NCBI RefSeq assembly: GCF_000518245.1
Contig: NZ_JADF01000008.1
Span: 276,043 to 340,042 of the forward strand
DNA length: 64,000 bases
Direction: 5' to 3'
Source: Brachyspira alvinipulli ATCC 51933
Lineage (GTDB): Bacteria; Spirochaetota; Brachyspiria; Brachyspirales; Brachyspiraceae
Positions 4,551-15,314 of this stretch are shown here, one piece after another. Position 1 is the stretch's first letter; every line of letters starts with the position of its first letter. Below the pieces are notes generated by a model. The model did not search any database. It had not been told where the DNA came from and saw only the letters and a list, made by a program, of their open reading frames with translations. Both the position numbers and the translations under genes were made by a program.

Positions 4551-4585
4551 TTTTACATCTCCATTTTTTATTTTTTTATAAAAAT

Positions 4586-4627
4586 AAGGGGATATACAAG
4601 TATAATTAAATATTTGTACTCCCCCTT
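4586..4627 (-). terminator. Intercistronic hairpin between grdB and grdC
   Basis: Two nested stems, AAGGGG/CCCCTT and TACAA/TTGTA, with an AT-rich loop, followed on the minus strand by ATTTTTATAAAAAAAT. It lies 60 bases past the grdB stop and inside the operon. It could be a partial terminator or an RNA-stability element setting different levels of grdB and grdC message; the sequence does not decide. Confidence 0.5.
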
Positions 4628-4687
4628 AATTTTTACAAATATTTATATATTATTATATATAAATATTTTTATTTTTCAATATAATTA

Positions 4688-5986
4688 TTATTTTTCAAAT
4701 ACTGTTTGTGAATCTACAGGAGTTGTTAAAGCTTTTAATGCTCTCTCAACTAATTCACGTCTAAGTTTTTTCTCATCCTCTTTAGACATATTTGGATTAC
4801 CTAATGGGTGAGGTATTGCAACTGCTGGAACTATTCTGTTAGCACCAACTGTTAAAGATATAGGAACAATAGTACAAATATGAACTACAGGTATTCCAGT
4901 AGCTTCTATTGCTTTAACCATCGTTGCACCGCAACGAGTACAAGTTCCTCAGGTTGATGTTAATATAACAGCCTGAACACCATCTTTAACTAAAGTTTGA
5001 GCAAATTCAGTAGCAAATGCTTTAGAATTTTTAACTGATGTACCGTTACCAACTGTAGTATAGTAATAAGGATAAAGTTCTCCTATCTTACCTTCTTTTT
5101 GTATTTCTTTCAATACATCAACTGGTAATACTCTGTTAGGATCTTGGTTAGCATAAGTTGGGTCATAACCACCATGTGCTGTCTCAGCCATATCATTTAT
5201 AGAATATCTTCCGAATTTAGAAGCAGAAGAAGATTCAATATGGTCTGGGTTACCAGCTGGTACTATACCACCACTTGTAACTAATGCTATTTTAGCTTTG
5301 CTTAAATCTTTAATAGCTTCACCAGGAGTTACTCTGTCAAAGTCTGGCATTGGATATTCTGTAGTAAATGCTTCGCCTTTAAGTTTGCTAACAAGCATAT
5401 CAACAGCTCTTTCAGCACCAACTTTATCTCTAAATAATGGAACACGTACGCCTCTAGGCATATAACCTTCAGCTTCTGGAGCACCAATTTCTTCTTTTTT
5501 AAGAAGTTTAGAAGCTAATTTAGCTATAACTGGTAAAGCGTCTCTCATACCAGCAGCAGAATCTTTAGTAGAAACGATATAAACATCTTTCTTAAACATA
5601 TCTGCACCTGGGTTTTCAATGTACATACCAGTAACAGCTGGGATTTTTAATTCATCTTGAACCATTTTAGCAACTGTACCGCAAGCTGTACCATAACGTC
5701 CAGCATTGAAAGCAGGACCTGCTATAACCAAATTTGGACTATAGCTTTTAATCATATCTAAAACTTCTTTTTTAGCTTTTTCCAAATTTTCATTGAAGTA
5801 AGAGTCACCGCAGATAACTGTAGCAACTACTTCAGCATCAATACCTAATTTCTTTAATTCGCCTTGTAATCCAGCACCTGGACCTACAACTCCATCTCTT
5901 TTTTCTGGAGCTATATCAGCTTTCTCTTCTCCACCAATATTAGCGAAGAACTGATTTATATAATGAACTATTTTATATTGTGGCAT
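4688..5986 (-). CDS. grdB: Glycine reductase component B, selenoprotein subunit GrdB (Sec346)
   Basis: A 432-residue selenoprotein, read through an in-frame UGA at 4949-4951 (residue 346). The two halves of 345 and 77 residues are in the same frame. Around the UGA the protein reads VILTST-U-GTCTRCGATMVKA, the conserved Sec site of GrdB. Together with pyruvoyl-carrying GrdE it forms the substrate-specific component B, where the Sec residue attacks the substrate carbon bound as a Schiff base on GrdE and passes it to GrdA. Start ATG has AGGAGG seven bases upstream. Order grdE-grdA-grdB matches clostridial operons. A stop-aware annotation that ends at the UGA would truncate the active site. Transcript hairpins flank it on both sides. 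Confidence 0.97.
4922..4951 (-). promoter_or_regulatory. SECIS element and recoded UGA of grdB
   Basis: On the minus strand the UGA (4951-4949) is followed by 14 bases and then TTGCGGTGCAA (4934-4924). This sits in the perfect hairpin CGTTGC-GGT-GCAACG (six pairs, three-base loop). Bacterial SECIS elements lie just 3' of the UGA in the coding region and bind SelB, so the placement fits. A second copy of the same core at the same distance is found at 8163-8190. Confidence 0.85.
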
Positions 5987-6130: not shown

Positions 6131-6607
6131 TTACTTATATTTGCAGTTTTCATCACGCATTTTTTTGATTTCTGCGATGATTTCATCTACATTTAATGTC
6201 ATTTCAGCCATACCAACCTGTTCATCATAAACACCAGCATCAACTGCTTCTTTGAATTCAGGTTCTACAGCGTGATAAGCAGCTAAGCCTAATGCAACTC
6301 CAGACAAAGCTCCAGCATAAGTAGGGTCTCCTATCATTACTGTTTCAGCTGCTAAGCCAGTAGCTTCTGCTTCTGCTGCTCCAAATAATACTACTATATT
6401 TTCTCCTCCAAATTTTTCAACAAATTCTTTAATTCTCTTTTGGTTCTCTAAATCCATCGCTCCTGCGGCTGTTCAAACAAAACACTCCGTAGCAGCAAAC
6501 AAAACTTCTGCGTCTTTTACTGTTTCAACGCATGCTTTGATAGCTTCTCCAGGAATGCCGTCTCTATCGCCAATGATAATTACTTTTTTACCATTTAAAA
6601 TACTCAT
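6131..6607 (-). CDS. grdA: Glycine reductase selenoprotein A (GrdA, Sec45)
   Basis: A 158-residue selenoprotein, the small carrier that holds the carboxymethyl group as a selenoether between component B and component C. A naive ORF starts only after the UGA at 6473-6475. Reading upstream in frame gives [17 protein letters not shown]..., then [15 protein letters not shown], the conserved GrdA active site, so Sec is residue 45. Start ATG follows AGGAGG by six bases. Full length for the family. It lies between grdE and grdB. Reduction of its mixed Se-S bond is expected to come from the thioredoxin system (trxB upstream). Confidence 0.97.
6458..6475 (-). promoter_or_regulatory. Recoded UGA and candidate SECIS of grdA
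   Basis: UGA at 6475-6473 on the minus strand is followed seven bases later by the small hairpin CGC-AGGA-GCG (6467-6458). It is weaker than the grdB hairpin and does not share its sequence. The recoding itself is secure from protein conservation; the exact SECIS fold is not. Confidence 0.55.
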
Positions 6608-6663
6608 GGCTTTCCTCCTAAAATTTTGTTTATATTTTAAAAATTCAGTATAACAAAACTAAA

Positions 6664-7950
6664 TTATAGTCCTGTAGCACTAAATTTGTTAAAACCTAAT
6701 TCGTTTGTAGCACCAGTAATAACTTGTATTTCTGCTTCAATAGAACCATCTGGTTTTAATGATCCGTCAAATCCGCCAGCAATTTTATCTGTGTAATCTA
6801 ACATACCTATTATTTTATCCATTTTTGGTAAATTAATGATAACGTTAGCATTACCGCCTGATACAACAGCATTAGCAGATACATCAGCATCAGCTAAAGA
6901 TTGTGAAGAACCATCTCTACCTGCATACTCATCTGTTACAAGACAAGTTTTGATACCTAAAGCTTCAATTTTCTTACAGTTCATTATCAAGTCTGTATCT
7001 GGGTTACCGAATCCTTCTTCAGATACTATTACACCATCTAAACCAAAGTATTTAGCTAATTTAGATGACCAGTCTGAAGAACGCATTTTATCTGCTAAGA
7101 ATACGTTTTCATTTGTAATTATTACACCCATAAAGTTATAGTCTTTACCATGTCTTTCATATAAAGCTTTAATTATAGGGTTATTTAAGTGGTGATAAGT
7201 TGTGTTTTTATCACAAGCTGATACACAGTTACCACTTACTATAGCACCATCCATAACTTCTGTTGGATAAACAAATGTTGGAACTATTTTTTTAGCATCA
7301 ACACCATAAACATAAGTATCATGTAACAAACCTTGAGTCTGAAGCATATATACATAACCTACTTTTGGTAAGTTAGGATACATTGCTGCTTGTTCAAATA
7401 TAGGTTTAGTTTCATAAGTATAAGTTTTTTCAGGTTTTAAGTCTTTAGCTAATTTACCTAAATAATCAGCTACTCTTAAACCAGCACCTCTTACTGCTGC
7501 TTCATAATCATGTCTTTCTATAGGCTCAACAGGCTCTATAACTAAACATAAATTATTAAGCTTTGAGAATGGAGTATAATCAGCACCAGGACCTGTCATA
7601 TCGATGATACCTTCTTGGAATCCAACGATTTTACCGCAAGTAACAACAGCTGCACCTTTTAATACATTAGTTTTACCTTCGCCAACTGTATCTACTTTTG
7701 CGATCATTCCTGGAAATATTCCGCCTCTGCCTTCAACTTTTACTCTTGGTTCAATTACGTCTTTTACAGGTGTAATACGTACTGATTCACCAGGACGAGC
7801 TACTTCAACTTTTACGCTTTTCAACTTATCGTCTTCAAGCACTATTTTTGTAACCTCTTCCTCATTTACGTAAAGCACGCCATTCTCGACTTTTGAAATT
7901 TTGTCAAGCTTTATATCTTTAATATAAATCTCGCCTACTTCTAACTTCAT
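6664..7950 (-). CDS. grdE: Glycine reductase component B, proprotein GrdE
   Basis: A 428-residue proprotein that cleaves itself into two chains. The site is VSGNCVSACDK, with cleavage between Asn241 and Cys242. Cys242 becomes the pyruvoyl group that binds the glycine amine as a Schiff base. The cysteine number is the same as in characterised clostridial GrdE. Its partner is GrdB. Start ATG follows AAGGAGAC by a short spacer. It opens the second part of the operon, after a terminator that separates it from trxB and the small Sec ORF, so it may have its own promoter. Confidence 0.96.
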   Translation of the reverse strand: MKLEVGEIYIKDIKLDKISKVENGVLYVNEEEVTKIVLEDDKLKSVKVEVARPGESVRITPVKDVIEPRVKVEGRGGIFPGMIAKVDTVGEGKTNVLKGAAVVTCGKIVGFQEGIIDMTGPGADYTPFSKLNNLCLVIEPVEPIERHDYEAAVRGAGLRVADYLGKLAKDLKPEKTYTYETKPIFEQAAMYPNLPKVGYVYMLQTQGLLHDTYVYGVDAKKIVPTFVYPTEVMDGAIVSGNCVSACDKNTTYHHLNNPIIKALYERHGKDYNFMGVIITNENVFLADKMRSSDWSSKLAKYFGLDGVIVSEEGFGNPDTDLIMNCKKIEALGIKTCLVTDEYAGRDGSSQSLADADVSANAVVSGGNANVIINLPKMDKIIGMLDYTDKIAGGFDGSLKPDGSIEAEIQVITGATNELGFNKFSATGL

Positions 7951-7973
7951 ATAGTCTCCTTTTTTTAAAGTTT

Positions 7974-8002
7974 TTTATAAATAATATATTAATTATAAAC
8001 AA
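7974..8002 (-). promoter_or_regulatory. Possible promoter of grdE
   Basis: TTGTTT, 17 bases, TATAAA on the minus strand, between the terminator T tract and the grdE ribosome binding site. The -35 box is poor. The main argument is that grdEABCD needs a start after the strong terminator unless the terminator is regulated. Confidence 0.3.
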
Positions 8003-8003
8003 A

Positions 8004-8049
8004 CAAAAAAAGAGTGACAAATATATTATGCAATATATTTATCACTCTT
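8004..8049 (-). terminator. Strong intrinsic terminator or attenuator between trxB and grdE
   Basis: AAGAGTGA/TCACTCTT and AAATATATT/AATATATTT stems (17 pairs, one mismatch, loop of four), then seven T residues on the minus strand. It overlaps the last eight codons of the small UGA-containing ORF, so a ribosome reaching that stop codon would physically disrupt the hairpin. This is the arrangement expected of a translation-controlled attenuator, which is inference. Confidence 0.8.
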
Positions 8050-8205
8050 ATTTACCACAACTAACCCAGAAGAAAGTAAAGATTTAACTGTTAAACAATT
8101 TAATATATGCATATTATAAAACCCTATTTTATTAAATATATTATTAACAAAAAGATTACTAATTGCACCGCAATATAAATTGTTTACTCAAATATTAAAT
8201 CTCAT
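8026..8205 (-). CDS. Candidate small selenoprotein, HMA-like (Sec6), between trxB and grdE
   Basis: A 59-residue frame with a UGA as codon 6 (8188-8190): MRFNI-U-VNNLYCGAISN and so on, ending in LVVVNKSDKYIA. ATG is preceded by AAGGAAG at seven bases. Two things argue for Sec decoding. The UGA is followed after exactly 14 bases by TTGCGGTGCAA, identical in sequence and spacing to grdB. It also lies in the operon slot used by trxA in clostridial grd loci. The start aligns with heavy-metal-associated domains (V-x-x-M/L-x-C-x-x-C), but the second Cys is Ile15, and the C terminus is shorter than a full HMA domain and overlaps a terminator. A decayed gene is the main alternative. Function is unknown. 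Confidence 0.5.
8163..8190 (-). promoter_or_regulatory. SECIS-like element identical in core to that of grdB
   Basis: UGA (8190-8188), 14 bases, then TTGCGGTGCAA (8173-8163), within the stem ATTGC-GGT-GCAAT. The 11-base core, loop and spacing are the same as grdB. The flanking bases differ, so this is not a simple copied grdB segment. Confidence 0.6.
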
Positions 8206-8273
8206 CACTTTTCTTCCTTAAATATTTATTTTAAATATAACATTATTTTTAAATAATGCAACTTTTTTATTTT

Positions 8274-9233
8274 TTAATCAGCAAATTTTTCTTCAATATA
8301 TTTATTAGCAGAGATAGCTGCTATAGCACCATCAGCTGTAGCTGTAATAACTTGTCTCAACATTTTTGGTCTTAAATCTCCGCAAGCAAATACACCTTCA
8401 ACATTTGTTTTCATTTCTTCATCTGTAATAATATATCCATCTTGCATGTTTACTTTACCTTCAAACAATTTTGTCAAAGGAACATAACCTACAAAAATGA
8501 ATACACCAAATGTTCCATCATTTTCATCTGCTTTATATTCATATTGTTCGCCTGTTTCATTATTTAAGAATATAGCAGATTCAACTATACCATCACCTTT
8601 AACTTCTAAAAGCTCTGTTCTAAATTTAATTTCTACTTTAGGATTAGATTTAGCTTTCTCTTCTATAGAGTTAGCACAACGTACATAATCTTTTCTTACT
8701 ATCAATGTTACTTTTCTAGCAAATTTAGATAAATACATTGCTTCTTCAACTGCAGTATCACCACCGCCTACACAGAACACTTCTAAGCCTTCAAAGAAGT
8801 TAGCATCACATGTAGCACAATAAGAAATACCTTTACCAGTATATTCTACCTCACCTTTACATCCTAATTTTCTAGGCTGAGCACCTGTTGCTATTATAAC
8901 AACTTTAGACTCATAAGTAGCACCGTCAGCAAGTTTTACTTCTTTTATCTTGCCATCTAATTTAACATCTACTACTTCTTTATGTTCTATTTCGGCACCA
9001 AATTTTTTAGCCTGTTCTATCATTTTATTTATAAGGTTTTTAGGATGCTGCCCTTCTTCTGTTCCTTCAAAGAAACCAGGATAGTTAGCTATCTCATCAG
9101 TTATACTAATTTGTCCGCCGAAACTGCCTTTTTCAAAAAGAACAGTTTTTAATCTAGCTCTAGCAGAATATATGGCAGCAGCTAAACCTGAAGGACCACC
9201 GCCTATTATAATACAGTCATATAAATTACCCAT
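8274..9233 (-). CDS. trxB: Thioredoxin reductase
   Basis: A 319-residue FAD/NADPH flavoprotein that reduces thioredoxin. The FAD-binding GGGPSG is at residues 11-16, the redox-active CATC at 139-142, the NADPH-binding GGGDTA at 156-161, and a C-terminal FAD motif GVFACGDLR lies near residue 281. Full length for the family. In glycine-reducing bacteria it regenerates the reductant that resets GrdA after each cycle. It lies 25 bases after grdX on the same strand. No trxA follows it here; the next frame is the small UGA-containing ORF, so the thioredoxin partner must be encoded elsewhere. Confidence 0.96.
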   Translation of the reverse strand: MGNLYDCIIIGGGPSGLAAAIYSARARLKTVLFEKGSFGGQISITDEIANYPGFFEGTEEGQHPKNLINKMIEQAKKFGAEIEHKEVVDVKLDGKIKEVKLADGATYESKVVIIATGAQPRKLGCKGEVEYTGKGISYCATCDANFFEGLEVFCVGGGDTAVEEAMYLSKFARKVTLIVRKDYVRCANSIEEKAKSNPKVEIKFRTELLEVKGDGIVESAIFLNNETGEQYEYKADENDGTFGVFIFVGYVPLTKLFEGKVNMQDGYIITDEEMKTNVEGVFACGDLRPKMLRQVITATADGAIAAISANKYIEEKFAD

Positions 9234-13924: not shown

Positions 13925-15177
13925 TTAATTTTGTTTTATATTGCTGTTTGATACAATTCTTATTATTTCAAGTGTCGTTTCCAAACTCTTATGAAATGAA
14001 GGTATAGGCAAAAACTCATATATAGAATGGAAATTATGAGCCCCTGTAAAATAATTAGGAGTTAAAAGACCTTTTACTGATAAAGCAGAACCATCCGTAC
14101 CACCTCTCATAGATATAGTTTTCGGTTCTATATTAATATTTCTCATAGCCTCGTATATAACATCTATGGCAAATCTCTCATCTTTAATAGAATCTGCAAT
14201 ATTTCCGTAAACATCTTCAATAGTTAATTCTATCTTTGCTCTAGGCTCCAATTTTTTGTACTTCTCAACAACTTCTACTATTTTATGCTTTTTCTCTTCA
14301 TAAAGTTTTTTATTATGATCTCTTATATTTAGTTTTAAATATGCATTTCTTTGATTTCCTCCAATACCCTGAACCCATATATAGCCTTCTTTTTTCTCAG
14401 TATTTTCCGGAGTTTCTTTTCTGTCAAATTCATTAGCCATATCTTTGCTATTAGTATAGGATTTACTAATACTCCCTTGGCACTCATAGGATGAGCTGTT
14501 ACCCCTTCTATATCTATGGATGCACTTCCTGCATTAAATGTCTCATACACAATTTCACCTATTTCGCATGAATCTATTGTATAGGCAAAATCTGGTTTAA
14601 ATACAGTCAAATCTAATGCTTTAGAACCAAGCAGTCCTATTTCTTCATCCGGTACAAAAGCTATGTATATATTTCCATGCTCAATATTATTATCTATTAT
14701 ATATTTTAAAGTTGACATAATAGTAGCTATTGCAGCCTTATTATCTGCACCTAATACACTTGTTCCGTCAGAAAATATAATATCATTGTTCATATAATTA
14801 TTAATTTCAGGATGATCTGATACTTTAAATATTATATTTTTTTCTTTATTCAAACATAAATCTTCACCTTTAAATTTAAGTATTTGTGGATGAACATCTC
14901 CTGTAAGTCCTATATCTACAGTGTCAAGATGTGATACAAAGCCGATAGAATATGTATTATCTTTATTTTTAGGAAGGAGTGCTGTAACTATCGCATTTTC
15001 ATTTACAATTACATCCTTTAATCCAAAAGATTTTAAATCTTCAGCAAGAACTTTAGCAAGATTCATTTGCCCTTCAGAACTTGGAAGCGTTTTTGCTCCT
15101 GCTATACTTTGGCTTGGTATTGAAACATATTTAAAAAAACTATCTATTTGAAATTTCTTGATATCATCGTTTAACAT
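13925..15177 (-). pseudogene. pepT: Peptidase T, split by a one-base frameshift
   Basis: Two overlapping frames together make a full M20 tripeptidase of about 417 residues. The first (from ATG 15177, AGAGG six bases upstream) holds the metal sites FVSHLDTVD, GADNKAAIA and FVPDEEIGLLGS. The second holds FDRKETPENTE, MRGGTDGSAL and GAHNFHSIYEFLP. The break is at 14444-14446: GCAAAG where GCAAAAG would restore NPILIAKDMANEFDRK. The enzyme removes the N-terminal residue from tripeptides and needs zinc ligands from both halves, so the shifted product would be inactive. All motifs are intact, so the lesion is recent, or a sequencing error. Confidence 0.88.
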
Positions 15178-15314
15178 ACTAACCTCTTTCACAATACAAT
15201 TAGAATATACAGATAAATGTATAATATATAATAATAAAAAATAATCATCAATAGAAAATTTTTATTTTATGATTTTTATTACGATATTATAATAAATACA
15301 TTTTGAGGTATAAT

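Follow-up and report, generated by a model that had tools for sequence, protein, structure and literature searches.

A proposed selenocysteine-gated transcription attenuator upstream of the glycine reductase operon of Brachyspira

In Brachyspira alvinipulli ATCC 51933, the glycine reductase genes grdE, grdA and grdB follow trxB on the minus strand of the stretch of DNA analysed here (64,000 nucleotides of contig NZ_JADF01000008.1, referred to below as the window), and the 323-nt spacer between trxB and grdE carries a short leader frame on the same strand (Table 1). The original prediction of a 59-codon frame in this spacer, with a good ribosome site and a UGA as its sixth codon, is borne out by the window sequence. 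The frame, for which a GTG one codon 5' of the ATG offers an alternative start, reads from 8205 to 8026 as MRFNIUVNNLYCGAISNLFVNNIFNKIGFYNMHILNCLTVKSLLSSGLVVVNKSDKYIA, with U at the UGA. Elsewhere in the window, two overlapping ORFs (14335-15192 and 13925-14440, minus strand) look like a single peptidase-T-type protein (tripeptide aminopeptidase) with a frameshift.

Table 1. Features of the leader and of the neighbouring genes (window coordinates)
Feature	Position	Strand	Remarks
trxB	8274-9233	-	upstream neighbour of the leader
Probable leader promoter	8234-8261	-	weak -35 TTGCAT (8261-8256), 16 nt, extended -10 TGTTATATT
Ribosome-binding site AAGGA of the leader	8215-8219	-	sequence
Leader reading frame	8026-8205	-	ATG 8205, 59 codons, UGA as codon 6, TAA 8028-8026 within the terminator
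P1 5' strand, UGA included	8188-8199	-	pairing analysis
UGA codon, proposed selenocysteine	8188-8190	-	kept in 12/12 leaders
SECIS core TTGCGGTGCAA (4-bp stem, GGU loop)	8163-8173	-	14 nt after the UGA; same in grdB
P1 3' strand	8083-8094	-	counterpart is TTTCTCAGGGATTAAA in most of clade B
Intrinsic terminator	8005-8049	-	hairpin 8049-8014 (-19.9 kcal/mol), U-run to 8005
Promoter-like TTGTCA-N17-TATAAT	7992-8020	-	overlaps the terminator; possible separate grdE promoter
grdE	6664-7950	-	first gene 3' of the proposed attenuator; orthologues in 13 Brachyspira genomes
grdA, in-frame UGA	6131-6607	-	
grdB, UGA 4951-4949 and SECIS_4	4688-5986	-	

The 11-mer that follows the leader UGA has only two copies in the window, the second of which is found in grdB (4934-4924), likewise 14 nt after a UGA, which confirms the earlier claim that UGA-N14-TTGCGGTGCAA has the sequence and the distance seen in grdB while the flanks differ. 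In grdB, the element is a member of the Rfam family SECIS_4 (RF01990, 62.8 bits), whereas the leader, which has the same core and spacing in different flanks, gave no SECIS_4 match at E <= 5 in a search of positions 7900-8300, and Rfam holds no family for the leader. The leader has two of the features expected of a bacterial selenoprotein, an in-frame UGA and a SECIS hairpin at a working distance from it. Across 26 Brachyspira genomes, the exact pattern UGA-N14-TTGCGKYGCAA occurs only in grdB-like sequences (assigned by sequence, with the pattern TGAGG.AC.TG.AC.CG) and in this spacer in 12 genomes, and the reversed pattern, used as a control with one mismatch allowed, gave 0-1 matches per strand. 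Exact UGA-N14-core matches are also found in other spirochaetes, some of them grdB-like.

An orthologous grdE (88-100% identity) is present in 13 of the 26 Brachyspira genomes, 12 of which carry UGA-N14-TTGCG[G/T][T/C]GCAA in the same slot. The remaining one, the 2.0-Mb genome G010, has only 35 nt in the slot and no leader, and its grdB keeps the UGA. In G007, the leader is kept though grdE appears fused to a grdC-like sequence and there is no match to the grdB pattern, which suggests that grdA and grdB were deleted here and the leader left intact. At this locus (L043, G007:C1:1234862-1236001), grdE matches up to residue 380 and runs on in a 739-aa open frame, with DNA beyond that looks grdC-like. 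The leaders fall by sequence into four groups or clades, A (G000, G002, G022), B (G017, G024, G016, G011), C (G018, G001, G007, G015) and D (G021). Outside the kept elements, spacer identity is down to 69-80%, or the sequences can no longer be aligned, and the leader of G021 has the UGA, the spacing and the SECIS core in common with the others, and almost nothing else.

The leader lies immediately 5' of a selenoenzyme operon, the products of which need selenium, in a genus equipped with both SelA (26 of 26 genomes) and tRNA-Sec (above threshold in 25 of 26). At G000:C1:238114-239578, the tRNA-Sec is found ~340 nt 5' of selA, and most of the genus has this arrangement. Several Brachyspira also have a second (67% identical) and a third (~41%) grdE-like gene (G000:C8:162124-163404, or L046, and the similar loci L044-L054), some of them with a UGA-containing grdB-like gene nearby, and no leader was found at these loci. 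The Brachyspira grd cluster has been described previously (PMC2897892), in passages that make no mention of a leader.

In other bacteria, the slot often has a different occupant, as trxA lies directly 5' of grdE in many of 80 grdE loci, and the original statement that this slot holds trxA in clostridia therefore stands. When the same 80 loci were scanned for the architecture of the leader, it was found only in the Brachyspira records; elsewhere, the scan gave glycine-riboswitch-like motifs, a single tRNA-Sec-like sequence and chance matches. At locus L133, a tRNA-Sec-like sequence lies upstream of grdE. The two spacers available from the sister genus have no leader, and one of them has TTGACA-N18-TATAAT directly before grdE. 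A covariance model (R1) run over 24 sequence sources had the copy in the window as its sole full-length match; given that it missed the diverged copy of G021, further diverged copies may exist.

Every leader start in the 12 genomes is preceded by an AGG/GGA-type ribosome site, as judged from the sequence only, and the UGA follows at codon 6 to 12. The distance from the UGA to the core is 14 in all 12 leaders, the core being TTGCGGTGCAA, TTGCGTTGCAA or TTGCGGCGCAA, and one pair of the SECIS stem shows compensatory change. Beyond the UGA, the frame is free of stops up to the terminator loop in 11 genomes, with a stop at the hairpin loop in G011, while the two remaining reading frames contain 2-11 stops. 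The frame is open in all 12 leaders, where shuffled sequences are open with P 0.003-0.042 each, and neutral divergence simulated within clades gave weak support for selection on it (P 0.08-0.6). As far as these sequences go, the weight of the open frame as evidence is in its recurrence in four diverged groups, and not in its openness within any one group.

The original prediction read this frame as a small selenoprotein, resembling a heavy-metal-associated (HMA) domain and acting in the delivery of selenium or electrons. The domain likeness was not supported, given that a Pfam search with four read-through peptides gave no match at E <= 1, and that the window peptide has no CxxC and no Cys homologue. 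The proposed role in delivery is not supported either, on similar grounds: besides this lack of a domain, replacement and silent changes after the UGA occur at about equal frequency (dN/dS about 1, range 0.40-6.3 in 15 within-clade pairs), and the peptide differs between groups, also in length, with that of G021 sharing little beyond the C-G-A encoded by the SECIS. The residues that recur near the UGA would be those dictated by the SECIS and the long-range helix described below. Of the conservation expected across Brachyspira, the UGA and the hairpin are kept (12 of the 13 genomes with grdE), whereas the peptide is not, and the pattern looks like that of a regulatory leader, not of a new selenoprotein.

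The end of the frame is overlapped by an intrinsic terminator, a feature absent from the original prediction. Just 5' of grdE, all 12 genomes have a hairpin (-11.5 to -21.1 kcal/mol) with a U-run after it; four pairs of this hairpin show compensatory changes, and CTCTTTTTT is invariant in the 11 genomes aligned. The U-run lies 118-182 nt from the UGA, and the stop codon of the leader is placed in the hairpin in six genomes and 3' of the U-run in the other six. The frame ends 75-86 nt 5' of grdE in clade A, G011, G024 and G016. The read-through frames of clades C and D stop 26-40 nt short of grdE or, as in G021, run up to the grdE start. In six other ORFs of the window that have a terminator of the usual kind, the frame closes 19-37 nt 5' of the hairpin, unlike in the leader; grdE is the exception, as a hairpin overlaps its end, although the U-run of this hairpin is not conserved. 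In a set of 72 terminators (window and Brachyspira loci, both strands), the arrangement of the leader, i.e., a ribosome site, a start, a UGA within 15 codons and a frame open into a strong terminator, was found in the leader and nowhere else. The hairpin at the end of grdE (6635-6690, minus strand) covers the stop codon before grdA and occurs in relatives too, and another strong hairpin (4580-4630, minus strand; GGGGGAGUACAAAUA...UAUCCCC) lies between grdB and grdC and is also found at L055 and L057, without a conserved U-run.

These internal hairpins bear on the possibility that the leader acts through translation or SelB binding without any termination of transcription, much as the E. coli SECIS RNA does in translational control, in which case the hairpin before grdE would protect or process the mRNA. 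The hairpins between grdE and grdA and between grdB and grdC would be in keeping with such a role, and the frame ends of clades C and D, at or near the start of grdE, would permit translational coupling. This is nevertheless quite unlikely, given that the U-run is kept in the leader hairpin and in neither of the two other operon hairpins, and that the distance to grdE in clade A, G011, G024 and G016 is too great for coupling.

Upstream of the leader, the probable promoter has its -10 hexamer at 8239-8234, whereas in the window its -35 is a poor match. The sequence TGTTATAT upstream of the leader is kept in clades A and B, and three clade B genomes have TTGACA, 16-18 nt and TATATT before the leader, which would be accounted for if the leader had been inserted between a pre-existing promoter and grdE. 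In clade C, there is no room for a promoter between trxB and the leader, so that the leader transcript must come from trxB or from further upstream. The promoter-like sequence over the terminator is good in the window, weaker in G002, represented by a different match in G021, and poor or absent elsewhere; in the window, grdE may possibly be transcribed from it independently.

Such a promoter after the hairpin is what would be expected if the frame encoded a genuine small selenoprotein with its own terminator and grdE were transcribed separately. The good ribosome site, the UGA with its SECIS, the open frame, and the hydrophobic C-terminal half of the peptide in clade C point in the same direction. 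The reading is still unlikely, as the -35 of the downstream promoter is not conserved, the frame overlaps the terminator in a way that ordinary genes do not, and its end ranges from within the hairpin to the start of grdE, in addition to the dN/dS, the Pfam result, and a G021 peptide that cannot be aligned.

The long-range helix, P1, joins codons 3-6 of the leader, around the start and the UGA, to an element further 3' that precedes the terminator. Its duplex is better than that of shuffled sequences in most genomes, G018 and G015 being the exceptions, and in G021 a comparable helix is formed by another pair of sequences. Taking the SECIS stem, P1 and the terminator together, 98.2% of the cells pair, versus 38-52% when the partner is slid, and 20 cells have changed on both sides, with a covariation score of 0.262 versus 0.164 in shuffled data; this covariation comes mostly from the terminator, and P1 contributes a single pair in which both sides have changed. 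A search for an antiterminator returned no consistent upstream partner for the 5' arm of the terminator, so that the leader is not of the trp type. This result is consistent with direct occlusion of this arm by the ribosome, attenuators of the occlusion kind having no antiterminator.

An unconstrained peptide is also what a former trxA, or some other Sec gene, would leave behind in its decay; trxA fills the slot in many grd operons elsewhere and is absent from it in Brachyspira. The relic reading was rejected as highly improbable, given that the UGA, the 14-nt spacing, the SECIS stem, the open frame, the terminator and P1 all persist while the spacer around them diverges, and that the sister genus likewise has no trxA, yet no relic is found in its two spacers.

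The leader combines a ribosome site, a UGA and a SECIS with an open frame of unconstrained sequence and an overlapping terminator, and the simplest function for such a set would be that Sec insertion decides transcription. By sequence, a leader frame with a ribosome site, a terminator before grdE, and a frame that reaches this terminator are found in 12 of the 12 genomes. We therefore propose, with a probability of roughly three in four (0.77), that the leader attenuates transcription of the glycine reductase operon in a selenocysteine-gated manner, and, with a little more caution, that the Brachyspira leaders probably form a class of attenuators in which the recoding of a stop codon is the decision, so that a test translation of one Sec codon, on a SECIS core identical to that of the enzyme encoded downstream, admits the polymerase to a selenoenzyme operon. 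From the elements and their conservation, which are observed, we infer Sec insertion, the activity of the terminator, the direction of control and the role of the helix.

In the proposed mechanism, a ribosome would start the leader behind the RNA polymerase and arrive at the UGA. When SelB-GTP-Sec-tRNA is present, it would act with the SECIS hairpin 14 nt 3' of the codon, resulting in the insertion of Sec and the continuation of translation; the ribosome would then cover the 5' arm of the terminator and block the hairpin, and the polymerase would go on to transcribe grdE, grdA, grdB, grdC and grdD. When Sec-tRNA is scarce, on the other hand, a release factor would stop translation at the UGA, the terminator would fold, and the operon would be off. 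P1 would form only once the ribosome has left the start/UGA region, and our guess is that it probably blocks late re-initiation. In E. coli, UGA is recoded at 30-40% only when selenium is sufficient, with negligible read-through without it (PMC4513850), and this dependence makes such a codon suitable as a sensor. Given the 118-182 nt between the UGA and the U-run, either a tight coupling of the ribosome and the polymerase or a polymerase pause would be needed. The points that count against the attenuator are this distance, the downstream promoter-like sequence of the window, clade C, P1 in G018 and G015, the weak support for an open frame within clades, and the genomes G010 and G007.

How cells sense their selenium status is largely an open question, and even in a well-studied archaeal case the sensing is unknown according to the authors (PMC11097638). 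If the proposal is true, the leader would sense the Sec-decoding pathway as a whole (selenium supply, SelA, SelD, tRNA-Sec and SelB), directly and at the RNA level, and would provide one genus with a complete, small and testable answer to this question. It would also mean that stop-codon recoding can be a metabolic sensor, and would explain the silence of a selenoenzyme operon under selenium shortage. The leader could become a selenium-responsive reporter, and it serves as a warning that selenoprotein searches can take regulatory leaders for new selenoproteins.

Among known systems, the nearest in logic is the pyrBI-type attenuation, which is coupled to UTP. Ribosome-mediated leader-peptide attenuators are also known from trp, his and ivb (PMC5373646). 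All of these have in common with the Brachyspira leader a short translated leader and a terminator before the structural genes, with the position of the ribosome deciding the outcome. They differ in the signal, which in Brachyspira would be the recoding of a single stop codon as Sec, where the others rely on sense codons that stall the ribosome or on UTP, and in the switch, as no antiterminator was found and it is read-through, rather than stalling, that would turn the operon on.

The prfB gene regulates itself through a frameshift at a UGA inside the gene, by which it senses RF2, and is not known to involve a terminator. A near-start in-frame UGA that senses the decoding machinery is common to prfB and the Brachyspira leader, whereas the frameshift is particular to prfB. 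The SECIS control of E. coli is reportedly translational, exerted through SelB, and without a UGA leader frame and a terminator. Both it and the Brachyspira leader place a SECIS-type hairpin upstream of genes, to which Brachyspira adds the UGA frame and the terminator. In the passage of PMC8124441 that cites it, the work on E. coli (Thanbichler and Bock 2002) is referred to for the SECIS RNA in translational control. Upstream of the grd operons of other bacteria, glycine-riboswitch-like motifs are found together with terminator-like hairpins (L069, L089, L095, L107 and L124). They would resemble the leader in exerting control at the RNA level with such a hairpin, but, identified by motif only, would sense glycine; they lie further upstream and have no SECIS frame.

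Finally, no Sec-dependent attenuator was found in the literature searched, most subscription papers being outside its scope, and neither "leader" nor "attenuat" occurs in a 2026 review of prokaryotic selenoproteomes (PMC13188914). The Sec-gated leader, as proposed here, would be a variation on leader-peptide attenuation, and a variation that is itself new.
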